From: Psychroflexus salarius
GTDB taxonomy: Bacteria; Bacteroidota; Bacteroidia; Flavobacteriales; Flavobacteriaceae
Length of the DNA stretch: 64,000 bases
Direction: 5' to 3'
Assembly (NCBI RefSeq): GCF_900129035.1
Contig: NZ_FQTW01000008.1
Span: 1 to 64,000 of the forward strand
Shown in pieces: positions 35,560 to 45,557 of this stretch. The notes beneath the pieces are model-generated. The model saw nothing but the letters and a program-made list of their open reading frames with translations, was not told the origin of the DNA and searched no databases. Made by a program: the position numbers and the translations under genes. Numbering within the stretch: the first letter of the stretch is position 1; each line of letters starts with the position of its first letter.

Positions 35560-36597
35560 TTAATAACCAGTTTGGTTATGTTTTACTTTTCCCCAAAATG
35601 TTCTATAAACAAAATAACTGTACAATAATACTAAAGGTCCGCCGATAGCTACAAAACCCATCATAATTTTCAAGGTTTTAATCGATGCTGCTGCATTGTA
35701 AATGGTAATGCTATTTTCTATACTTGGGTTAGACATTAATAGTCTTGGATACAATTCAAAAGCCACAATTACAAGTAATAAGGAAATGGTAATACTTGTA
35801 AAAATAAAGGCCCAGCCATATTTTTTCTTACTAGCTAATCTAGGTACGTTGGCAATGCTTAAAAACACCAATAAAGGCACTATAAATAAAACTTTGTTTT
35901 CTTCAAAAACAACTAGCAAATGGTCTAGATATAAAAAGCCGTAGCCCGTGGTAATAATATAAGCGATGATAAAAAAGGCCATTCCTTTTTTTAAAAAACC
36001 TTGAATCCTATCAAATAATTTGCCTTCCGTTTTAAGCAGTAGATAAATAGCACCATGCATCATGAAGAGTGCTAAACTTGTAACGCCAACTAAAATTGAA
36101 AAAGGATTGAGAAATTCAAAAAAGCCGCGTCCAACATATTCGTAGTTTTGATCGAGTGGCATTCCGTTAAGAATGTTTCCTAAAACTACACCCAATAGAA
36201 ATGCCAGCATGATACTAGAAATAGAATAGCTCCAATCCCACAATCTTCTCCACCAAAGCATGTCTTCCATATTTCTAAATTTGATTGAAATACCTCGAAA
36301 AATAATAAAAAGTAAAAATAAAATGAATGGCGTGTACATAGCCGAAAATAAAGTACCATAAAAAACAGGGAAACCAGCAAATAATGTTCCGCCGCCAATA
36401 ACCAACCAAACTTCGTTTCCATGCCAAGTAGGGTCAATGGCTTTTAACGCGGTTTCTCTACTTGTATTTTTTCTAAAAAACATATGCCAAGCACCAGCTC
36501 CAAAATCAAATCCATCTAAAATGGCATAGCCAGAAAAAAGTGCTCCGACGACTAAAAACCACCAAGTTGGATAATCTATTCCTAATAAAGTTTCCAT
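35560..36597 (-). CDS. cydB: Cytochrome bd ubiquinol/menaquinol oxidase subunit II
   Basis: The 345-residue inner-membrane protein has about eight helices. Subunit II marker sequences are WWFLVVGALFSGYAILDGFD with GAGAWH following, DPTWHGNEVWLVIGGG (in two parts), and FRGISIKFR. With CydA it forms the high-affinity quinol oxidase used at low oxygen and resistant to sulfide. It starts 6 bp after cydA, so the two are one operon. The small CydX subunit was not identified. Confidence 0.95.
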   Translation of the reverse strand: METLLGIDYPTWWFLVVGALFSGYAILDGFDFGAGAWHMFFRKNTSRETALKAIDPTWHGNEVWLVIGGGTLFAGFPVFYGTLFSAMYTPFILFLLFIIFRGISIKFRNMEDMLWWRRLWDWSYSISSIMLAFLLGVVLGNILNGMPLDQNYEYVGRGFFEFLNPFSILVGVTSLALFMMHGAIYLLLKTEGKLFDRIQGFLKKGMAFFIIAYIITTGYGFLYLDHLLVVFEENKVLFIVPLLVFLSIANVPRLASKKKYGWAFIFTSITISLLLVIVAFELYPRLLMSNPSIENSITIYNAAASIKTLKIMMGFVAIGGPLVLLYSYFVYRTFWGKVKHNQTGY

Positions 36598-36603
36598 AAT
36601 ATT

Positions 36604-37980
36604 TTATTTAGTAACTACTTCAGCTATTTCTTTATTTAAACTACCATCATCAAAGTTAATATCACTGTCAGGACCGCTTTTAATTTTCTTATTCATTAAG
36701 TAAATGAATAAAAGAAATAAAACGAAATAAACAACAAAGAATAAGATTAATGAGAATAAGACCTGATTGGCTTGTACGCTTTTAGATAAAGCATCAGAAG
36801 TTCTTAGTAAACCGTAGACCACCCAAGGCTGTCTGCCCATTTCAGCCGCAAACCAGCCAAATTGATTGGCTAATTGTGGCAATAGTGCTGTAAAAACAAA
36901 AGTCCATAACAACCATTTTTTCTGAAAGAGTTTGCCACGTTTCCACTGCCACAAAGCAAATAAGCTTAAAGCAATAAGAAACATGCCAATGGCCACCATT
37001 AAATGATAAAATTGAAAAACTGCGTTGACTTGTGGTGGTTGGTCTTCTTTTGGAAATGCATCTAAACCCGTTACAGGTGTTTCAAAGTCTTGGTGTAACA
37101 TAAATGAAAGTCCTCCAGGTACTTTTAAACCGCTAACTTCTTTATTTTCTTTATTTACCCAACCCAGCAAGTATAAATCTGCTGGTGCAGATTTTTCAAA
37201 GTGGCCTTCCATAGCGGCCAACTTTGCAGGCTGATTAACAGCAACGCCTTCAGCAGAACTATGACCTGTAAATAATTGAGCTAAAGAGGCAACAGCTGCA
37301 ACAATTAAAGTTATTTTGAATGCTTTTTTTGATAAGAATACAAATCGCCCTTTTAAAATATAATAAGCATGAACACTTAAAATTAAAAAAGTTCCTGCTA
37401 AAAATGCACCAAGCCAAACATGCGTTAATCGATCTACAGATGAAGGATTAAAAACCATAGCCCAAAAATCGACTATTTCTGCTCTGGCTTGCATTCCTTC
37501 GCCTACAATATGATAACCAGCAGGCGTTTGTTGCCAAGAATTGGCTACAACGATCCACACTGCAGAGAACATCGAGCCTAAAAAAACAGCCCAAGTAGCT
37601 ACTAAATGTACCCAAGGTTTTACACGATTCCATCCAAAAAGCAAGACACCTAAAGCACTACTTTCTAGAGCAAAGGCAAAAATACCTTCAGCAGCGAGTG
37701 CACTACCAAAAATATCACCAACATAACGCGAGTATGTTGCCCAATTGGTTCCGAACTCAAATTCCATAACAATACCAGTTACCACACCAATACCAAAAGT
37801 AATTGCAAAAATTTTAGTCCAAAATTTAGCAAGAACCTCATATTCTTTAAGTTTAGTACGCAAATACATACTTTCAAAAACGACCATGATTAGACCAATA
37901 CCAATACTTAGAGGCGGATAGATATAGTGAAAAGCAACGGTAAAGGCAAATTGGATACGTGAGAGAATTTCTACATCCAT
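36604..37980 (-). CDS. cydA: Cytochrome bd oxidase subunit I
   Basis: The 458-residue inner-membrane protein binds hemes b558, b595 and d. Heme-ligand regions are recognisable: FTVAFHYIYPPLSIG (His near residue 18), and GWFAAEMGRQPWVVYGLLRT around the C-terminal catalytic region. The length indicates a short Q-loop form. The promoter region carries a Crp/Fnr-type palindrome and a perfect TAATTTTG -7 element. cydB follows directly. Confidence 0.96.
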   Translation of the reverse strand: MDVEILSRIQFAFTVAFHYIYPPLSIGIGLIMVVFESMYLRTKLKEYEVLAKFWTKIFAITFGIGVVTGIVMEFEFGTNWATYSRYVGDIFGSALAAEGIFAFALESSALGVLLFGWNRVKPWVHLVATWAVFLGSMFSAVWIVVANSWQQTPAGYHIVGEGMQARAEIVDFWAMVFNPSSVDRLTHVWLGAFLAGTFLILSVHAYYILKGRFVFLSKKAFKITLIVAAVASLAQLFTGHSSAEGVAVNQPAKLAAMEGHFEKSAPADLYLLGWVNKENKEVSGLKVPGGLSFMLHQDFETPVTGLDAFPKEDQPPQVNAVFQFYHLMVAIGMFLIALSLFALWQWKRGKLFQKKWLLWTFVFTALLPQLANQFGWFAAEMGRQPWVVYGLLRTSDALSKSVQANQVLFSLILFFVVYFVLFLLFIYLMNKKIKSGPDSDINFDDGSLNKEIAEVVTK

Positions 37981-37993
37981 AACTTTTTTTTTA

Positions 37994-38001
37994 CAAAATT
38001 A
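37994..38001 (-). promoter_or_regulatory. -7 element of cydAB
   Basis: On the minus strand the bases read TAATTTTG, a perfect TAnnTTTG. It lies 13 bp upstream of the cydA start and its last base is 37.5 bp from the centre of the palindrome at 38025-38038. Confidence 0.6.
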
Positions 38002-38024
38002 AAGCATTCTAATTCCTTTGTCGG

Positions 38025-38038
38025 GTAACTATTGTTAC
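38025..38038. promoter_or_regulatory. Crp/Fnr-family operator upstream of cydA
   Basis: GTAAC-TATT-GTTAC is a perfect interrupted palindrome. Its position relative to the cydA -7 element fits an activator bound near -41. The same pattern occurs upstream of the SQR and TauE genes. A weaker copy, TAACATTGGTTA, lies at 38053-38064 between this site and the next. Confidence 0.7.
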
Positions 38039-38066
38039 AGACGAAGTAAATTTAACATTGGTTATA

Positions 38067-38084
38067 TTGTGACTTTAGTCACAA
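38067..38084. promoter_or_regulatory. Crp/Fnr-family operator upstream of the copper-receptor genes
   Basis: TTGTGACTTTAGTCACAA is a perfect 18-bp palindrome with a 4-bp centre. Its centre is 35.5 bp upstream of the end of the plus-strand -7 element TATCTTTG at 38104-38111, the position expected for a class II activator site. Confidence 0.72.
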
Positions 38085-38103
38085 AAGAAATTCCAGAGCT
38101 TTG

Positions 38104-38111
38104 TATCTTTG
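38104..38111 (+). promoter_or_regulatory. -7 element for the small cysteine protein and TonB receptor
   Basis: TATCTTTG matches TAnnTTTG and lies 16 bp before the ATG at 38128. Translation cannot start at the upstream in-frame TTG at 38101 because that codon overlaps the promoter. Confidence 0.65.
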
Positions 38112-38127
38112 CAATAGAAATAAATCA

Positions 38128-38493
38128 ATGAAAAATAAAGCCATCTTATTAGTTATTTTAATAAGTCTTTTTACTTTAAAGAGTGGCTTTTTAATGTCTT
38201 ATTATTTAGCGTTCACTAACAATTTTATTGAAAACTTTTGTGCTAATAAAGACCAACCAGAATTAGAGTGTGATGGAAAGTGTTTTTTGTCTAAAATGCT
38301 AGATAAGTCACCAACTGATGATCACACAAGTTCTTTTAAGTTGTTTGTTGAAAATGAGCTTATTTATGTCTTATCACTTAATTCACTTTTTGGTTTTGCG
38401 CCAGTAGAGCCAAATTCTTCAAAATTTGCATACATTAATTTTTATAACGGCAGGAGCTTAGATAGCTTGATTAAACCACCAGAACTATTGTAG
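38128..38493 (+). CDS. Small cysteine-containing protein upstream of a TonB receptor
   Basis: The 121-residue product has an N-terminal hydrophobic helix (about 5-27) that is a signal anchor or signal peptide. After it come Cys38 (NFCANKD) and a C48-DGK-C52 pair followed by FLSKML. Small proteins with this N/D-GKC pattern recur next to TonB-dependent receptors in Bacteroidota as far as I recall, but I know of no established function. The cysteines and the neighbouring putative copper receptor suggest metal binding in the periplasm. ATG 38128 is chosen over the TTG at 38101, which lies in the promoter. Confidence 0.72.
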   Translation: MKNKAILLVILISLFTLKSGFLMSYYLAFTNNFIENFCANKDQPELECDGKCFLSKMLDKSPTDDHTSSFKLFVENELIYVLSLNSLFGFAPVEPNSSKFAYINFYNGRSLDSLIKPPELL

Positions 38494-38540
38494 ATTTTTC
38501 AGGATTCTATAATAATGTTTAATCAAGTAATTAAAAACAA

Positions 38541-40820
38541 ATGAAAAAATTGTATTTAGCAATGTTACTGTTATGTACAGCAGTAAGCTTTGCTCAAACT
38601 CGTGTATTTAAAATTGTAGATAAAAACACACAGAAAGAATTAACTTCGGCCTATGCCGAAAACACAACAACTAATGCTATAATTTATGCTACTGCTGAAG
38701 GCTTGGCACTTCAGGTACAACAAAGCTATCGCATTAAAAACTTAGGTTATCAACCAGTTGAGGTTGAAATTACTTCAACTACTCCAAAAATTATAGTGCT
38801 TCAGCCAAAAGTAAATAGTTTAGCTGAAGTTCTAATTACAGGTAATCGGCTTCAAGATCCTGTAATGACTATGGTAAAGCCAGATATTTCAAAATATGTT
38901 GTTCAACCAAAAAATGTAGCTGATTTATTTTCGGGACTAAATGGGTTCTCGTTAATAAAACGCGGTAATTACGCTATAGATCCAAGCTTTAGAGCAGCTC
39001 AGTACGAACAACTCAATATTCAATATGATGGAGGCACTAAAGTTATGCATGCATGTCCTAATCGTATGGATCCTATAACTAGTCACGTTTCACCAGAAGA
39101 AATTGCTAAAATTGAAGTTATTAAAGGTCCGTTTAGTATGCGTTATGGCGCTACTTTTGGTGGTGTTGTGAATTTAGTTACGCAATCAGCTCAAAACTAC
39201 AAGCAAGGCGTTTCTGGATCTGTATCTTCAGGTTATGAAACCAATGGAAATGCTTTAACCACAATGGCTAAAGTGAATTACGTTGATGAAAAGTTTGATT
39301 TAGGTGTCAACTATGGTTACCGCGATTTCGGTAACTACGAAGATGGCTCTAATACCGAGATACCAAGTAGTTTTAGAAGTATTGATTACGGCATAAATTT
39401 AGGTTATAATTTTACCGAGCAACAACGACTTCAACTTAATTGGCGTCAATCATTTGGTCGTGATGTTTTACATGCTTCTTTGCCTATGGATACAGAATAT
39501 GACGATTCATCTATTGCTTCTTTAGATTATCATATTAAGGAATTATCTGAAGGTGTTAATGCTTTAAAATTTAAGTTATATTATTCATTTGTTGACCATT
39601 TAATGACAAATGAAAATAGACCAAATCGATCAATAGTTGAAGCAAGTTCGCCAGTAGAGTCCATAACAACTGGCGGTAAATTAGAAGTTGATTGGCAATT
39701 ATCTGAAGAAATTCGAGTATTTAGTGGTTTTGATGCACAACTATTAGCTAGAGATGGTTCACGAACACGCGTTGTTAAACAAAACATGATGGGAATGCCG
39801 TTACCTGAAGCTCAGGTATTTGTAGATAAAATTTGGCAAGATTCTTATGTTAACACGTTTGGTTTTTTTAATGAAGCCAAATGGAAGCTTTTAGAGCAAA
39901 CATCTTTAACATTGGGAGCAAGACTTGATTTAGTAACTTCAGATATTAAGGATCCAGAAGCCGATTTTGAAGACTTATATCCTAACTTAGGCGAGCGTGA
40001 AGAATACAACTTCAGTTTTACAGCATCTTTAACTCAAGATTTAAATGAATATTCAACATTAGAGTTTGCCTTTGGTCGCGGTCTTCGATCAGCTAATATG
40101 ATTGAGCGATATATCAATCATTTTTCTGTAGGTTCAGATCCTTACGAATATATTGGTAACCCAAATCTTGACGCTGAAGTTAATAATCAATTTGAAGTTA
40201 AATATGCTTCTAATTATGCAATTAATCATGGCTTTTTTAAGGGAATAAGTTTCGAAGCATCTGCTTATTATTCAATATTTGAAAATTATATTGCACCATT
40301 GATAGACACAAGTCTAAATCGGAAATATATGCCAAATCAAGAACCAATTCATCCAAAAGTGTTTAGAAATTTAGATGACGCTTATAAATACGGTTTTGAA
40401 ACTAGTTTTAACTTAGCTTTACCAAACGATTTTAATTTAAATTGGCAATCTGCTTATGTTATGACCAAAAATGAAGATCTTGATGAAGCTTTACCATTAA
40501 CGCCGCCATGGCGAAACAGGTTTACATTGGCATATACCACCAATACATTTTGGAGTGAATTAGCTTATCAAGTTGTAAGTAAACAAGATGAACTTTCAAC
40601 CTCTTTTGGTGAAGTTGAAACGTCAGCGTGGCAAACATTAGATTTTAAAGCTGGTTTAAATTATAAATCTTATCAATTTGGTGTAGCTGTACTTAATATT
40701 TTTGATGAATTTTATAATAACCACCTCAATTTTGCTTTTACTAATCAAGATGGTTTTTCAAGACGACCAATTACTGAACCAGGTCGAAATTTTAGCGTAT
40801 TCGCCAAGTATAAATTTTAG
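38541..40820 (+). CDS. TonB-dependent outer-membrane receptor, probably for copper
   Basis: The 759-residue protein has a signal peptide (MKKLYLAMLLLCTAVSFAQ), a short carboxypeptidase-regulatory-like N-terminal domain (about 20-95), a plug domain (about 100-235) and a 22-strand barrel ending GRNFSVFAKYKF. In the plug, H170-A-C172-P-N-R-M176-D-P reproduces the CxxxM arrangement that binds copper in the OprC/NosA receptors. This supports copper import, though the second OprC ligand pair was not located. It shares a Crp/Fnr-type promoter with the small cysteine protein 47 bp upstream. Confidence 0.85.
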   Translation: MKKLYLAMLLLCTAVSFAQTRVFKIVDKNTQKELTSAYAENTTTNAIIYATAEGLALQVQQSYRIKNLGYQPVEVEITSTTPKIIVLQPKVNSLAEVLITGNRLQDPVMTMVKPDISKYVVQPKNVADLFSGLNGFSLIKRGNYAIDPSFRAAQYEQLNIQYDGGTKVMHACPNRMDPITSHVSPEEIAKIEVIKGPFSMRYGATFGGVVNLVTQSAQNYKQGVSGSVSSGYETNGNALTTMAKVNYVDEKFDLGVNYGYRDFGNYEDGSNTEIPSSFRSIDYGINLGYNFTEQQRLQLNWRQSFGRDVLHASLPMDTEYDDSSIASLDYHIKELSEGVNALKFKLYYSFVDHLMTNENRPNRSIVEASSPVESITTGGKLEVDWQLSEEIRVFSGFDAQLLARDGSRTRVVKQNMMGMPLPEAQVFVDKIWQDSYVNTFGFFNEAKWKLLEQTSLTLGARLDLVTSDIKDPEADFEDLYPNLGEREEYNFSFTASLTQDLNEYSTLEFAFGRGLRSANMIERYINHFSVGSDPYEYIGNPNLDAEVNNQFEVKYASNYAINHGFFKGISFEASAYYSIFENYIAPLIDTSLNRKYMPNQEPIHPKVFRNLDDAYKYGFETSFNLALPNDFNLNWQSAYVMTKNEDLDEALPLTPPWRNRFTLAYTTNTFWSELAYQVVSKQDELSTSFGEVETSAWQTLDFKAGLNYKSYQFGVAVLNIFDEFYNNHLNFAFTNQDGFSRRPITEPGRNFSVFAKYKF

Positions 40821-40839
40821 ATAAAAATGGTTTGCACAA

Positions 40840-40869
40840 AAAAAGGTCAACTAATCAGTTGACCTTTTT
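40840..40869. terminator. Bidirectional terminator between TonB receptor and SQR genes
   Basis: AAAAAGGTCAACT (40840-40852) pairs perfectly with AGTTGACCTTTTT (40857-40869) around AATC, between two convergent genes. Confidence 0.9.
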
Positions 40870-40890
40870 GTTTTTTAGGTTGAAACTAAA

Positions 40891-42147
40891 TTAAACAGCT
40901 TCCCCTTTCATCATTTTATTCCAGTATAAATAAGGTAGTCCATATTTTTTAAGCATCCATAATCGCCAATGTTCCTTAGCAGAATTAAAAACTAGCATCT
41001 GCTTGAGTTTTGGATCTGGTGTAAAATTACCTTCATAATCAAATTCTGCAAGCGTCATTTTACCATAACCGGTTACTAACGGACAAGAAGAGTAGCCTTG
41101 ATAAGAATCATTATTCGCTTCTTGATTACTCATGAGTTTTAAAATGTTGTCAACTAAAACAGGTACTTGCTTTCTTATGGCTGCACCAGTTTTAGCCGTA
41201 GGTAAGCCAGCAACATCACCTAGCCCAAAAATAGTTGGATATTTATTATGTTGAAGTGTATTGATATTGACATCAAGCCACCCATCTTTATTGGCCAATT
41301 CAGAATCACGAACAAATTTTGGTGCAGCTTGAGGTGGAGCGATATGCAGCATGTCAAATGGAACTTCTATATTAGCTACCCCGCTAATTTTTTCACCAAT
41401 TTCTTTAGATTCATTGGTTACACATTGGTTTTCATCATCTCCTGTGTATGAGAAAATAATTTTTTTGTTTTTTGCATCAATATGTCTTGGTGCATAAAAC
41501 GGTTTGAACACCATACCGTAACGTTCTACAACTCTAGTTAAAGTATCACGAATAGGCTTAACACCAAATAGCACTGAACCAGGCGTAGCAAACACAACTT
41601 TAGAGTCGATTTTGTTTTTTCTAAAATAATCTGCAGCTAAATAGGCAATTTTTTGTGGAGCTCCACCGCACTTTATAGGAGTTGTAGGTTGAGTGAAAAT
41701 AGCATTACCACCTTTAAAGTTTTTAATGACTTCCCAAGTGTGTTTAGGGTCGGTATAATTACTACAAACCACACCTTTACCTAAAGACTCTTCAAGACCG
41801 TCAATTTGTTTAGGGTCCATAACTAAACCTGGAGATACAACTAAATATTTGTAACCAATAGAACCATTGTTTTTGGTTTCGACAATGTTTTCTGTAGCAT
41901 TAAATTTCGTGGCATAATCCTTAATCCATTTAGCGCCTTCCGGAATTAAGTCTTTCATTGGTTTAGCAGTATCTTCATAATTGTAAGTTCCTGCACCAAC
42001 TAAAGTCCAAGCTGGCTGATAATAATGGGTGTCAGCTGGCTCTATGATAGCAATGTCTAATGTTTTGTCTTTTTTTAGAAGTTGCGCAGCCGTCATGATG
42101 CCGCCTGTACCACCTCCGATAATTAAAATATCATGTGATGAGTTCAT
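40891..42147 (-). CDS. sqr: Sulfide:quinone oxidoreductase
   Basis: The 418-residue FAD enzyme of the membrane surface oxidises sulfide and reduces quinone. It has the Rossmann motif ILIIGGGTGGIMTA at the N terminus, a second nucleotide region, and three cysteines placed as in characterised SQRs: Cys128 (GVVCSNY), Cys160 (PTTPIKCGGAPQK) and Cys355 (SSCPLVTGYGK). The last two are the pair that forms the polysulfide bridge. Its promoter carries a Crp/Fnr-type palindrome at 42201-42214. It may detoxify sulfide or feed electrons to cytochrome bd. Confidence 0.9.
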   Translation of the reverse strand: MNSSHDILIIGGGTGGIMTAAQLLKKDKTLDIAIIEPADTHYYQPAWTLVGAGTYNYEDTAKPMKDLIPEGAKWIKDYATKFNATENIVETKNNGSIGYKYLVVSPGLVMDPKQIDGLEESLGKGVVCSNYTDPKHTWEVIKNFKGGNAIFTQPTTPIKCGGAPQKIAYLAADYFRKNKIDSKVVFATPGSVLFGVKPIRDTLTRVVERYGMVFKPFYAPRHIDAKNKKIIFSYTGDDENQCVTNESKEIGEKISGVANIEVPFDMLHIAPPQAAPKFVRDSELANKDGWLDVNINTLQHNKYPTIFGLGDVAGLPTAKTGAAIRKQVPVLVDNILKLMSNQEANNDSYQGYSSCPLVTGYGKMTLAEFDYEGNFTPDPKLKQMLVFNSAKEHWRLWMLKKYGLPYLYWNKMMKGEAV

Positions 42148-42200
42148 AAGAAGTTTTATTTAAAATTTAATAAAATTATGAAAAATCTATAACGTTATAT

Positions 42201-42214
42201 GTAACTAAAGTTAC
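42201..42214. promoter_or_regulatory. Crp/Fnr-family operator upstream of sqr
   Basis: GTAAC-TAAA-GTTAC, extending to a 16-bp palindrome TGTAACTAAAGTTACA. A minus-strand -7-like TAATTTTA (42171-42178) ends 36.5 bp from its centre. A second palindrome, ATAACGTTAT, lies between them at 42189-42198. Confidence 0.68.
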
Positions 42215-42247
42215 AATTGTTTAGCTTATCCTTAAGCAGATGGCTTT

Positions 42248-42928
42248 TTATTTATTAAGAATAAAATTAATAGCTGATTTTATATGTAAATCGGTAGTTT
42301 TTAAAAAAGGGACAACTGATTTTTCATCTTTTAATAGAATTGGGAGTTCTGTGCAGCCTAAGATAGCAGCATCAATTCTTTCTTGATGTGTTTTTATGAG
42401 TTCTTTATAAAATTGTTTAGCTTCAGATGTAAACTGGCCTTGTGTGAGTTCTTTAGAAACGTAATAATGAGACTTATTAATATTACTTTCAGAAGGAATG
42501 ACAATTTTCAAACCATAGTTTTCTGCTAGGTAATCTTTCAAAAAAGCTTTGGTAGTTGTTGGTTTATTACCAAGTAGTAATAAAGATTTGTAGTTGTATT
42601 TTTTGGCTTCTTGACCTATAGCGTCTGCAATGTGTAAAAATGGAATATCAATTTTAGGTTGTACAAATTCAACAGCCATGTGAGGTGTGTTAGCGCAAAT
42701 TATGATTGCTTCAGCACCGGCTTTTTGTAGCTTTTGAGCAACTTTTAGATAAGTAGAGTTAATCTCATCAATATCTTGCCGTCTCATAACATCTATATTA
42801 ATACTATAGATTAGTAACTCAGGATTAGCATCAAAACCAATTTGTTTACTAACACCTTCGTTAATCAACTTATAATATTCTAAAGTTGAATGATAAGAGG
42901 TACCGCCAATGAGTCCAAGTAGTTTCAT
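42248..42928 (-). CDS. Aspartate/glutamate racemase family protein
   Basis: The 226-residue cytosolic protein belongs to the two-cysteine Asp/Glu racemase family. It starts MKLLGLIGGTSYHSTLEYYK and has one catalytic Cys in IICANTPHMA and the other in AILGCTELPILL. The likely substrate is aspartate, by resemblance to YgeA/aspartate racemases, but relatives include hydantoin racemases and maleate isomerases. It is one base downstream of the carbonic anhydrase gene, so it belongs to the TauE operon; its link to sulfur metabolism is not obvious. Confidence 0.88.
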   Translation of the reverse strand: MKLLGLIGGTSYHSTLEYYKLINEGVSKQIGFDANPELLIYSINIDVMRRQDIDEINSTYLKVAQKLQKAGAEAIIICANTPHMAVEFVQPKIDIPFLHIADAIGQEAKKYNYKSLLLLGNKPTTTKAFLKDYLAENYGLKIVIPSESNINKSHYYVSKELTQGQFTSEAKQFYKELIKTHQERIDAAILGCTELPILLKDEKSVVPFLKTTDLHIKSAINFILNK

Positions 42929-42929
42929 A

Positions 42930-43700
42930 TCAAAAATGACTTAATTTAATGATTCTTCCATTCTGAGGTTTATGGTCGCGATAATTATTAATTGGCATAA
43001 AACCTCTCAGAAGTTCTACTTGAGCTTCAGATACATTAATTGGTTCTTTAAATACAAACCATGTCACATTTTCTGTGCAAGGCGGCGTGGTTAAAGAGCC
43101 TTTATAAGTAAAATAGTTTTGGTTTTCAGGTAGTGTAGATTGTATATCAAAACTTTTATTAATTAATTTTGATTCATCTTGTTCTAAGGGTAAAAAGCGC
43201 TCAAGAAATTCAAATGGTTCACTGTTTTTTCCTTCTTTTGCCATGATTCCTAGAACACATATTTCTCCTTCTTCAGAGGTGTGAACCAAATGTATTTCAA
43301 GTGGATAACGCACACCTTCAATTAAGTGTTCTGCTGGTTCATGAAAATGAAATTGAACTAAATTAAAACGTTTGTCGTTATAAATTAAATAATCTCCTTT
43401 CTCAAAATTGTATTTTATGGTATGTCCATTGTTTTCTACACTATGAATTTTCGTACTATCTGCATAATGTAAATCAAGTGGGTTTAGATTTTTGTCTTCG
43501 CTGAAGTTAACTAAGTTTATTGGAGATTGAAATAATCCGCTACATTGATTGTTTTTTTCTAGTTCGTCCCAATGTTCAGGTCCTGTTTCGCCTTCGTAGC
43601 TCCAATGGTTTTGATTAGCGTTTTTGTCAGTTGCACTTTCAGTACCACAACTTGTTACTACAATCAGGATAAGAAATATAGATTTAATTTTGTTCATCAC
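42930..43700 (-). CDS. Alpha-type carbonic anhydrase lipoprotein
   Basis: The 256-residue periplasmic zinc enzyme interconverts CO2 and bicarbonate. It has a lipoprotein signal with lipobox VTSC, followed by WSYEGETGPEHWDEL and QSPINLVNF. Zinc ligands are in VQFHFHEPAEH and the downstream LEIHLVH, and the substrate pocket in SLTTPPCTENVTWFVF. It overlaps the cytochrome gene upstream by 17 bp, indicating tight coupling within the operon. Confidence 0.93.
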   Translation of the reverse strand: MMNKIKSIFLILIVVTSCGTESATDKNANQNHWSYEGETGPEHWDELEKNNQCSGLFQSPINLVNFSEDKNLNPLDLHYADSTKIHSVENNGHTIKYNFEKGDYLIYNDKRFNLVQFHFHEPAEHLIEGVRYPLEIHLVHTSEEGEICVLGIMAKEGKNSEPFEFLERFLPLEQDESKLINKSFDIQSTLPENQNYFTYKGSLTTPPCTENVTWFVFKEPINVSEAQVELLRGFMPINNYRDHKPQNGRIIKLSHF

Positions 43701-44688
43701 TTTTAAAACTTATGCTCCAAATTCCTCTAACTTCGTTAGTTTGGTAACCAACTGCCTGATCTTTAGGATACAATTTCAATATTTTATTGTAGTCGCTTTT
43801 TGCAATTGTTTTATTTGGTGTACCATGGCATTTTAAACACATATTATTGGTTACAATAGGATAATAAAAGTTAGTTTGGCCATTATTTTTTTCTACAATT
43901 GGTTTGATGTCTTCACTGTTAGCTAATAAAGACTTAAACGTTTTAATATGTTTTACCTCTATGTTACTGGCAGCGTTTGAAGGATTTCTTGGCTGGTCCG
44001 TAACACGTTTGATTTTGACATTATGATAGTTAGCCATCGAGTCGGTGAGTGGTAAAGCTTGTTCGTTACAAAAACTTAAAGCATGACTAACGCCTTTTTT
44101 CTGAATAGCTCCCATTAAATTTTGACCTAAGACAGCTTTTGTAGATTTAGCATAATGCATACCTCTTTCTGCATCTGTTTTTGGTTGTGATTTACCCAGT
44201 TTTTTTTGTTTGCCTTTTTTTCTTCCTTTGCCCTTATGCTGTTTAAAATCACTTGGTTTTTCAATATTGTAATTATATAAATAGTGTGCAATAGCATTAA
44301 TATCTTTCTCTTTAAATACTTGGTAAGGCATGAGTCCAAATTTGTCTATTGCGCCTTTCATGATTGCTTTCTCTTTAGTTGGCTTCTCTAAAAATGTCCA
44401 TATTTTAGCCGTAAATTCTTCTTCTGAATTATATTTTTTTAGATAATGATTTTTAATTGCGATAAATGGAGGTGCAATCCTGTTTTCTTTTTTAGCTTTA
44501 GGATTATGGCAAACATAGCACTGATTTTCCATCAAAGTTTTCCCTTTAGAGGCTAACTCAGTTTGCGCTATTTCAGCTTCAGAAACATCTACATATTTAT
44601 TATTTTCATTTGCTTCAGTTTTAGTTGAAGTTTGACAACTCACTAGTGCTAATGAAATTACTGAAATCAGGCTTAATATTTTATTCAT
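43684..44688 (-). CDS. Lipoprotein fusion of cytochrome c and DUF3365 (Tll0287-like) heme domain
   Basis: The 334-residue lipoprotein (lipobox VSC at Cys18) has a cytochrome c domain with C57-YV-C60-H61 at residues about 45-150. A highly basic linker (GKGRKKGKQKK) at about 155-170 joins it to a DUF3365 domain with C284-LK-C287-H288. The conserved ALPLTDSMAN region lies in the second domain. DUF3365 proteins bind heme c and are suspected redox sensors or carriers. Placement between a sulfur-anion exporter and carbonic anhydrase suggests electron transfer in the periplasm; the donor is unknown. Confidence 0.85.
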   Translation of the reverse strand: MNKILSLISVISLALVSCQTSTKTEANENNKYVDVSEAEIAQTELASKGKTLMENQCYVCHNPKAKKENRIAPPFIAIKNHYLKKYNSEEEFTAKIWTFLEKPTKEKAIMKGAIDKFGLMPYQVFKEKDINAIAHYLYNYNIEKPSDFKQHKGKGRKKGKQKKLGKSQPKTDAERGMHYAKSTKAVLGQNLMGAIQKKGVSHALSFCNEQALPLTDSMANYHNVKIKRVTDQPRNPSNAASNIEVKHIKTFKSLLANSEDIKPIVEKNNGQTNFYYPIVTNNMCLKCHGTPNKTIAKSDYNKILKLYPKDQAVGYQTNEVRGIWSISFKSDEQN

Positions 44689-44695
44689 GTTTAAG

Positions 44696-45496
44696 TTATT
44701 TAGTGAATTCTTTAAAGATAATGTAAATTCCCATGACTAAGACAAACCAGCCAAAGCCTTTCTTTAGTTTTTTACCATCAATAAATTTGTTAAGCCAAAT
44801 GCCGATGAAGATACCAACAACTGAAAGTGCTGTAAAGCTTAAAAGGAAATTCCATTCAATTTCAAGATTCTGAACATCGCCAATAAAACCAATTAATGAT
44901 TTTATAGCGATGATCAACAATGAAGTTGCCACCGCTTTTTTCATAGGTAATTTTGCTAAAATCACCAGTGCAGGAATTATTAAAAATCCACCACCAGCTC
45001 CAACAATTCCTGTTAATGTACCTACAACAAAACCTTCTATAATAATTAATGGATAGTTGTATTGTATAGTTTGGTGCTCATCTGTTGCCTTATTTTTACT
45101 CTTTATCATTGAGTAAGATGCTAATATCATTATCACAGCAAAAAAGAGCATGATGGCAATATTCTTAGTAATTAAAAAACCACCAACACTAAATAACTCA
45201 TCTGGGATAAACGGGATTAAAAATTTACGAGTAACATAAACCGCAATAAAAGCAGGAATGGCAAAGACAATAGCTGTTCTAAAATCTACTAGTTTTTTTT
45301 GCATATTTCTAAACGCACCGACCAAAGAAGATACACCAACCACAAAAAGTGAATATGCCGTAGCGATTACTGGGTCTTCAGATAATAAATATACTAAAAC
45401 AGGAACAGTTAATATAGAGCCGCCACCACCAATTAAACCTAAAACGAGCCCTATAATTAAAGCGCCAACGTAACCAAGAATTTCTATAATTTCCAT
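44696..45496 (-). CDS. TauE/SafE family sulfite/sulfur-anion exporter
   Basis: The inner-membrane protein has about eight helices and the family's duplicated motif, seen at GLVLGLIGGGGSILTVPVLV near the N terminus and GTLTGIVGAGGGFLIIPALV in the second half. Relatives export sulfite, sulfoacetate or import thiosulfate-type anions. I place the start at ATG 45496 (MEIIEILGYVG, 266 residues). The longer frame from 45550 overlaps the Crp/Fnr palindrome and -7 element. The cytochrome gene follows after 7 bp. Confidence 0.9.
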   Translation of the reverse strand: MEIIEILGYVGALIIGLVLGLIGGGGSILTVPVLVYLLSEDPVIATAYSLFVVGVSSLVGAFRNMQKKLVDFRTAIVFAIPAFIAVYVTRKFLIPFIPDELFSVGGFLITKNIAIMLFFAVIMILASYSMIKSKNKATDEHQTIQYNYPLIIIEGFVVGTLTGIVGAGGGFLIIPALVILAKLPMKKAVATSLLIIAIKSLIGFIGDVQNLEIEWNFLLSFTALSVVGIFIGIWLNKFIDGKKLKKGFGWFVLVMGIYIIFKEFTK

Positions 45497-45513
45497 AGTA
45501 ATTAAATAAAATT

Positions 45514-45521
45514 CAAAATTA
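45514..45521 (-). promoter_or_regulatory. -7 element of the TauE-cytochrome-carbonic anhydrase operon
   Basis: On the minus strand the bases read TAATTTTG, identical to the cydA element. It lies 17 bp before the ATG at 45496 and ends 36.5 bp from the palindrome centre. Confidence 0.62.
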
Positions 45522-45543
45522 ACTTTATTCTTCAGTAGTAGCA

Positions 45544-45557
45544 GTAACATTGGTTAC
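45544..45557. promoter_or_regulatory. Crp/Fnr-family operator upstream of the TauE operon
   Basis: GTAAC-ATTG-GTTAC is a perfect interrupted palindrome whose inner 12 bases (TAACATTGGTTA) recur at 38053-38064 near cydA. The distance to the minus-strand -7 element matches the other sites; the distance to the plus-strand yqeY element (44.5 bp) does not. Confidence 0.7.

Follow-up and report, generated by a model that had tools for sequence, protein, structure and literature searches.

Sulfide oxidation operons are reportedly controlled by BigR (PMC5823870). Targets of this kind are common to BigR/SqrR, which belong to the ArsR family, and to the CstR persulfide sensors, all of which are repressors of families other than Crp/Fnr. 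To our knowledge, the known bacterial sulfide sensors all belong to such other families. In Psychroflexus salarius (Flavobacteriaceae), in contrast, genes for a sulfide:quinone oxidoreductase (sqr), a sulfite exporter (tauE) and cytochrome bd oxidase (cydAB) appear to be served by a Crp/Fnr protein at predicted class II activator sites. We analysed a stretch of 64,000 nucleotides from this organism (assembly GCF_900129035.1, contig NZ_FQTW01000008.1, positions 1 to 64,000; hereafter the window), which comes from a genome of 2.53 Mb in 47 contigs. Judging from sequence comparisons, the palindrome GTAAC-N4-GTTAC found there is likely to be the operator of a persulfide-responsive class II activator encoded elsewhere in the genome (the C18 regulator), and another palindrome, ahead of a copper receptor gene, is probably a separate low-oxygen operator.

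Among Crp/Fnr proteins, Escherichia coli CRP at class II promoters resembles the C18 regulator in its fold and in the geometry of its operator (TGTnA-N6-TnACA, expected near -41.5), whereas the C18 regulator has Cys77-x5-Cys83-Cys84 in place of the cAMP cassette, Val in place of Glu181, and promoters with TAnnTTTG, the -7 element of Bacteroidetes. NtcA of cyanobacteria, a 2-oxoglutarate sensor for nitrogen that binds GTA half-sites, has the same Arg-Val pair at CRP positions 180/181, but the cassette of the aligned NtcA chain is without the cysteines. HcpR2 shares with the C18 regulator a substitution of CRP Glu181 that goes with A for G in the operator, and its motif, GTAACnnnnGTTAC, is identical to the one described here (Rodionov et al. 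2005, PMC1274295, in the accessible part of the paper). That work also reports the correlation of positions 180 and 181 with the operator, so the recognition code and the motif are prior art. What is new here is the regulon, the regulator and the sensor cassette, for which no earlier description was found in the literature, although this negative is weak since coverage was partial.

Palindromes of the window and the strict operator

A sequence-only reading of the window had assigned four GTnAC-N4-GTnAC palindromes to one Crp/Fnr-type operator, and we re-found them at the same places, ahead of cydA (38025-38038), the copper receptor (38067-38084), sqr (42201-42214) and tauE (45544-45557). Measured from the centre of each palindrome to where its -7 element ends, the distances were also as claimed (37.5, 35.5, 36.5 and 36.5 bp, respectively), as was the perfect match of three of the four -7 elements. 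The cydA operator (GTAACTATTGTTAC in the window, GTAACAATAGTTAC when read towards cydA) and its -7 element (TAATTTTG, 37994-38001) precede cydA (36604-37980; best models at E ~5e-92, below curated cut-offs) and cydB (35560-36597; TIGR00203 above cut-off), which encode subunits I and II of cytochrome bd oxidase. The operator GTAACTAAAGTTAC (GTAACTTTAGTTAC towards sqr), together with the one imperfect -7 element (TAATTTTA, 42171-42178, 5/6 match), stands ahead of sqr (40891-42147), the gene for a flavoprotein of the sulfide:quinone oxidoreductase type (SQR_III at E 1.2e-65, below cut-off; Pyr_redox_2). Likewise, GTAACATTGGTTAC (GTAACCAATGTTAC towards tauE) and the -7 element TAATTTTG (45514-45521) precede tauE (44696-45496), a member of the TauE/SafE family of sulfite exporters, for which a start at MEIIEILG is likelier than that of a longer open reading frame (ORF) because the latter would overrun the operator. 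All these features lie on the reverse strand.

The loose form GTNAC-N4-GTNAC has six matches in the window against 0.44 expected, a number reached by none of 100 shuffles, with the two further matches at 1014 (intergenic) and 3619 (within an ORF). When one mismatch is allowed, enrichment becomes unclear (17 matches vs 11.6 expected; 7 of 100 shuffles reach 17). Genome-wide, the loose form shows no enrichment (20 sites vs 21 for the reversed control) and was therefore rejected as a single regulon; of its 14 sites beyond the window, 10 lie within ORFs (in one case a doubtful ORF of 94 aa and no other), and the remaining four are all strict GTAAC-N4-GTTAC. The strict form, in contrast, is enriched (7 sites vs 1).

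Each of the seven strict sites is directed at a gene and has a -7 element (at least 5/6 match) on that side, 36.5 bp away for six of them and 37.5 bp for cydA, and six of the seven lie between genes, the tauE site touching only the upstream-extended ORF start. Outside the window, strict sites are found in front of a TolC/membrane-fusion-like pair identified by eye (C4:78312), a TehB/TPMT-like methyltransferase (C18:317598), a rhodanese followed by a metallo-beta-lactamase/rhodanese protein with the architecture of a persulfide dioxygenase (C18:322954), and a YeeE/YedE sulfur transporter (C33:187739, where the end of the upstream ORF runs into the site). When the operator and a -7 element at 36.5 bp were searched as one pattern, the only genome hits at 0-1 mismatch were the six sites with exact spacing.

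The remaining genes of the tauE run, on the same strand, encode a protein that joins cytochrome c to a Tll0287-like domain (43684-44688) and a eukaryotic-type carbonic anhydrase (42930-43700), both recognized by domain matches, and lastly an aspartate/glutamate racemase family protein (42248-42928; TIGR00035 above cut-off). Gene labels here and below are family matches, or were given by eye where stated. The weaker copy of the operator that had been noted at 38053-38064 (TAAC-N4-GTTA, reverse strand) does exist but is not conserved: among the eight cydA loci with a strict site, a second TAAC-N4-GTTA was found within the 400 bp searched only in the window's own, and its role is doubtful. The site at 1014-1027 (GTGACTTGGGTCAC) lies between genes in a terminator-like stretch, with an imperfect -7 element at 35.5 bp, and its role is unexplained.

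The C18 regulator and its probable regulon in the family

The genome encodes three proteins with cNMP domains (on C18, C11 and C33). The strong candidate for the regulator, which had been predicted to be encoded outside the window, is the 209-aa Crp/Fnr protein at C18:322316-322945, whose gene ends 8 bases before the strict operator at C18:322954. It has the cNMP-binding-like domain and the Crp HTH that mark the Crp/Fnr superfamily (PF00027 and PF13545, both above cut-off), and its nearest named relative is from Psychroflexus (70% identity). Orthologues are present in 167 of 199 family genomes (E <= 1e-20), and more distant ones in 116 of 296 genomes sampled from the phylum (E <= 1e-25).

From at least 591 stretches, the 80 best regulator loci by similarity were chosen (1.58 Mb). 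The strict operator is present in 79 of these 80, with 244 copies in total, compared to a mean of 1.6 and a maximum of 13 copies for 59 permuted palindromes of the same letters; spacers other than 4 (0-3 and 5-10) yield 0-2 copies. The genes within 350 bp downstream of these sites encode mainly sulfur enzymes and transporters: persulfide dioxygenase (58), TauE (45), YeeE/YedE (27), SQR (17) and rhodanese (15), followed by the regulator itself (10), peroxiredoxin (8), and cydA, a cytochrome and TolC (2 each). A further 58 sites, including four inside ORFs, have no labelled gene within this distance; Pfam matches of the unlabelled neighbours inspected include SulP sulfate permease, a sulfite-oxidase-like molybdoprotein, a SoxA/TsdA-type cytochrome, DsrE, a second flavoprotein, DUF983 and a fatty-acid hydroxylase. 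Relatives of the cytochrome c/Tll0287-like fusion protein of the window (43684-44688) are present in 23 of the 80 loci. The genes for the hydroxylase (L130:16012-16887) and DUF983 (L130:9605-9994) carry strict operators in relatives, and the operators of their apparent counterparts in the P. salarius genome (L363 and L360) are degraded or hybrid.

Neither of the other two cNMP-domain proteins was retained as the owner of this operator. For comparison of orthologous promoters, we fetched the 30 best loci for each gene: cydA (out of 67 genomes), sqr (39), the receptor (37), the regulator (167) and the C11 protein, a REC-cNMP-HTH protein that we refer to as REC-Crp (86). Strict sites number 42 in 25 of the 30 regulator loci but only one in the 30 REC-Crp loci, and REC-Crp was rejected on this ground. 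The 189-aa C33 protein has Pro-Glu-Ser at the recognition helix and no Pfam HTH match, and its 12-kb stretch (L021) is devoid of GTnAC sites.

The promoters are nearly uniform in geometry. Among the 488 flanks of the 244 sites, 229 have a -7 element (at least 5/6) that ends exactly 36.5 bp from the operator centre, while every other distance between 15.5 and 85.5 bp is represented by 1-14 flanks. Such an element at 35.5-37.5 bp on one side accompanies 223 of the 244 sites, compared to 16-26 at control offsets. The consensus towards the gene reads T-G-T-A-A-C-N4-G-T-T-A-C-(T)-(G), 20 bp, TAnnTTTG, and no further conserved -33 element was seen over these flanks. The sharp peak at 36.5 bp is the fixed distance between operator and core promoter that characterizes class II sites; with its centre near -41.5 from the expected start, the operator would occupy the class II activator position. 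No promoter consensus was found in the part of the Bacteroides thetaiotaomicron transcriptome paper that was available (PMC10994844).

The site is kept across the family. An exact site lies within 400 bp ahead of sqr in 25 of the 30 orthologues (27 with at most one mismatch), beginning 61-82 bp ahead of the match start, and ahead of cydA, within the same distance, in 8 of 30 (16 with at most one mismatch). In the sqr and cydA promoters of sampled family genomes, the spacing is 36.5 bp in 26 of 33, 35.5 bp in one and 37.5 bp in two. The sqr gene is found in 39 genomes that have the regulator and in none without it; for cydA, the numbers are 66 and one, and in the exception (G023) there is no cydA site within two mismatches. 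The density of strict sites is 1.89/Mb in the 167 genomes with the regulator vs 0.72/Mb in the 32 without it (p 4e-11; reversed control p 0.09), although lifestyle may explain part of this difference, given the generally smaller size of the genomes that lack the regulator. With 28 strict sites vs 4 for the control, genome G195 has the highest number of the 199, which may reflect a far larger regulon or a repeat.

The recognition helix of the regulator reads T-S-R182-V183-V184-x-S186-R187, with V183 aligned to CRP Glu181 and invariant in 30 of 30 near orthologues. In 60 distant homologues (from 86 matching genomes outside the family, picked for spread and distance from contig ends), this position is occupied by V in 29 and by E in 31. 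The strict GTAAC site was found at 12 of the 29 V loci and none of the 31 E loci (p 3.7e-5) and GTAA-N6-TTAC at 16 V vs 8 E loci (p 0.034), whereas GTGA-N6-TCAC (3/29 V vs 14/31 E, p 0.0038) and TGAC-N4-GTCA (1 vs 7, p 0.053) are commoner at E loci; these p-values leave the relatedness of the loci in. Four control palindromes showed no difference between the V and E loci. Specificity mutants of CAP at E181 were sought in open papers as support and were not found.

Because its motif is the same, one might take the C18 regulator for HcpR2 itself, a regulator of nitrosative stress. However, PF03063 (hcp), the gene family that HcpR2 regulates, is absent from the P. salarius genome and from 198 of the 199 family genomes, the remaining one (G146) having a single 42-residue piece; the regulon here concerns sulfur, with sulfide oxidation genes, rather than nitrogen; and the position of CRP residue 181 is mostly Pro in HcpR2, as far as the accessible part of PMC1274295 shows, vs Val in the C18 regulator, which also has the cysteine cassette. 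We consider this identity very improbable, the membership having been rejected, without a tree, on the absence of hcp and on residue 181.

The cysteines may point to a different sensor. In CRP, the phosphate-binding cassette includes Glu72, Arg82 and Ser83, and the 4Fe-4S oxygen sensor of FNR uses four cluster cysteines, three of them near the N-terminus. The only cysteines of the C18 regulator are C77, C83 and C84, arranged as Cys77-x5-Cys83-Cys84, which sets it apart from FNR; all three are invariant in 30 of 30 near orthologues, and in the distant homologues C77 is present in 60 of 60 and the CC pair in 17 of 60. In the alignment to CRP, the cAMP phosphate cassette is replaced by the stretch GETCAMTLSCCTTNHKS, and the NCBIfam model for CRP gives 55.6 bits compared to a cut-off of 266. 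The predicted structure, of fair quality (mean predicted local distance difference test score of 83, with 70 over residues 71-80 and 56 over 81-90), has 3dv8, CRP, NtcA and FNR as its best fold matches. We infer that the part played by cAMP in activation is taken by a persulfide on Cys77, or by a bridge from it to Cys83/84, and this is the least secure step of the argument. The cAMP contacts of CRP are listed as residues 71, 72, 82, 83, 127 and 128 in the accessible part of PMC6603298.

The palindrome at the copper receptor

The palindrome at 38067-38084 lies on the forward strand and reads TTGTGACTTTAGTCACAA (TGTGA-N6-TCACA), with the GTGAC-N4-GTCAC core GTGACTTTAGTCAC at 38069-38082. It faces the receptor genes, and its -7 element (TATCTTTG, 38104-38111) is followed by the gene for a small C-x3-C (CDGKC) protein (38128-38493; ORF from an earlier TTG at 38101) and that for a TonB-dependent receptor (38541-40820), for which the nearest NCBIfam model is 'copper', with a score under its cut-off. 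The window copy of the CDGKC protein matched neither Pfam nor NCBIfam models; in 25 of the 30 fetched loci, the receptor is directly preceded by a frame with C(D/K/N/E)GK(C/T).

The sequence-only reading held that all four palindromes are one degenerate GTnAC operator, read by a single Crp/Fnr protein. Their common N4 geometry and nearly equal spacing speak for this, as do the nine GTGAC-N4-GTCAC copies in 9 of the 80 regulator loci (above the permuted mean) and the hybrid half-sites ahead of lipid hydroxylase and SCO-like genes. Against it, in addition to the lack of genome-wide enrichment of the loose form and the association of strict GTAAC with V183, stands the situation in the receptor loci. 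A GTGAC-N4-GTCAC site (0-1 mismatch) faces the receptor in 16 of the 30 orthologues, the window's own included, with the -7 element at 36.5 bp in 12 of them, 35.5 bp in two and 37.5 bp in one, and an oppositely facing GTAAC operator (0-1 mismatch) coexists with it in the same region in five of the 30 (the window's own, L208, L210, L220 and L222). The divergent gene opposite the receptor is cydA in G049, G076, G133, G179 and G184. Moreover, the GTGAC site (0-1 mismatch) is confined to genomes that encode REC-Crp (16/25 vs 0/5, p 0.014), although a TGAC site exists in a genome without it (G135). We therefore regard a single operator for all four promoters as unlikely; the four palindromes appear to be two operators, and the idea of a shared operator is partly supported, holding for three of the four promoters.

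Scans that assume no motif agree with a second operator. In the REC-Crp loci, such a scan returned five class II palindromes, all of them xTGAT-N4-rTCAx-like, and none at two control spacings; in the receptor loci, it returned 14, compared to 1 and 0 at control spacings. Across the genome, TGAY-N4-RTCA at 36.5 bp from a -7 element, with at most one mismatch, has 30 sites vs 5 for the reversed control. The genes were read at about half of these 30 hits: there are sites ahead of a hemN-like gene, the ccoNO run and a ccoI-like ATPase, ahead of FixH-like and universal-stress-like genes (both named by eye), and also ahead of unrelated genes. As the spacing at the window's own receptor is 35.5 bp, the exact 36.5-bp pattern misses that site.

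The receptor site is thus probably a separate, FNR-like TGAY-N4-RTCA operator, read by the C11 REC-cNMP-HTH protein together with a PAS histidine kinase that may sense oxygen, and copper uptake would most simply be part of a low-oxygen cbb3 regulon. This second system resembles FixL-FixJ-FixK in its PAS kinase, receiver and Crp-type output and in its sites at cbb3, ccoI-like and hemN-like genes, except that the receiver and the Crp/Fnr output are fused in one protein here. At L020:6139-8416, the ORF of the REC-cNMP-HTH regulator overlaps that of the PAS histidine kinase, whose PAS domain is FixL-like by eye. At L411:11548-13746, a single 732-aa ORF joins the COX1 subunit of the cbb3 oxidase to FixO.

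The same genes bear on what the GTAAC regulator senses. The signal could be low oxygen or a general thiol or oxidative stress, with the sulfur genes following from life at an oxic-anoxic interface: cydAB belongs to the classic targets of low-oxygen control, a disulfide or a metal site could be built from three cysteines, and a peroxiredoxin gene adjoins eight sites. However, the low-oxygen-type genes inspected (the ccoNO run, ccoI-like and hemN-like genes) bear the other operator, the GTAAC regulon consists mostly of sulfide oxidation, sulfur transport and sulfite/thiosulfate handling, and the C18 regulator has no N-terminal cluster motif. A low-oxygen or thiol signal thus seems doubtful, and the combined low-oxygen/sulfide signal of the sequence-only reading is not supported as one signal.

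Predicted sulfide response and its meaning

Several observations weigh against a GTAAC operator for a persulfide-responsive C18 regulator with a separate operator at the receptor. The spacing at cydA is 37.5 bp, which in the 36.5-bp pattern puts cydA level with seven other hits at two mismatches, and at up to three mismatches the combined pattern has 61 genome hits vs 58 for the reversed control, with no excess from which weaker regulon members might have been picked out. As the exact site is present at only 8 of 30 cydA orthologues, cytochrome bd is not a universal member. Genomes that lack the regulator still have a background of strict sites (50 in 69 Mb), and the lipid hydroxylase and DUF983 genes in the regulons of relatives have no obvious role with sulfide. 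Many distant relatives, some of them encoded beside sulfur genes, no longer have Cys83/Cys84 (CGG in 18 of 60). With respect to the recognition helix, a strict site is missing from 17 of the 29 V loci, TTGA-N6-TCAA is found more often at V than at E loci (11/29 vs 3/31, p 0.014), TGAT-N4-ATCA is equal in both (13 V, 14 E), GTGAC-N4-GTCAC is rare in both (1/29 V, 3/31 E), and the tree-corrected test of V/E against the operator, with seven changes, is not significant because there are only three supported independent pairs. At the receptor, L209 and L219 have GTAAC without a GTGAC-type site, L204 and L207 have hybrid sites that are as close to GTAAC as to GTGAC, and a perfect CTGAC-N4-GTCAG, 36.5 bp from a -7 element, is found in G135, a genome devoid of REC-Crp. 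In L215 (G179), the only palindrome nearby is GTAAC, flanked on both sides by a perfect -7 element at 36.5 bp, so the receptor there may be under the sulfide regulator. The split between the two operators is therefore blurred in some relatives, which lowers confidence in it a little; the L204, L207 and L215 sites also count in favour of a single operator.

With these points included, we still consider a persulfide-responsive C18 activator at GTAAC-N4-GTTAC, and a second, low-oxygen operator at the receptor, to be the likely arrangement. The operator, its spacing, conservation and gene content, and its linkage to the regulator gene can be read directly from the DNA; binding and activation would proceed as follows. 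A dimer of the C18 regulator would sit on TGTAAC-N4-GTTAC, its centre 36.5 bp upstream of the end of the -7 element and about -41.5 from the start. As sulfide rises, SQR and chance chemistry would produce persulfide or polysulfide, the most likely signal. Its sensor would be Cys77 (with Cys83/Cys84), at the place where the cAMP phosphate is bound in CRP. The modified dimer would bind the operator and recruit polymerase from the class II position, activating seven promoters: those of cydAB, sqr, the tauE-cytochrome-carbonic anhydrase run, the rhodanese/persulfide-dioxygenase-like genes, YeeE/YedE, the TolC/membrane-fusion-like pair and the TehB/TPMT-like gene. SQR, persulfide dioxygenase, rhodanese, and the sulfite and sulfur transporters would then clear the sulfur, and cytochrome bd would keep electrons flowing while the haem-copper oxidases are poisoned by sulfide; the bd oxidases of E. 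coli are sulfide-resistant, according to the accessible part of PMC4815019. Low oxygen by itself would switch on cbb3 and its copper ATPase, haem synthesis and copper uptake by way of the other operator.

In a broader formulation, towards which we lean with modest confidence, a Crp/Fnr subfamily present in 167 of the 199 sampled family genomes would have swapped the cAMP cassette for a Cys-x5-Cys-Cys persulfide sensor and become a master activator of the sulfide response with a nearly invariant class II promoter. Sulfide oxidation would thereby be coupled to a change to cytochrome bd, and copper for the sulfide-sensitive cbb3 oxidase would remain under oxygen control through an operator of its own within the shared divergent promoter region. 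If this is true, a Crp/Fnr activator with a cysteine cassette in its nucleotide site would represent a new sensing solution, used in most of the sampled genomes of the family, and the near-invariant promoter would allow direct prediction of the regulon in such genomes. Natural test cases of the Crp/Fnr recognition code would come from the V/E swap in the protein and the A/G difference in the operator. At the divergent promoter of cydAB and the copper receptor, the choice between copper-free cytochrome bd and copper-dependent cbb3 would become testable at one locus.

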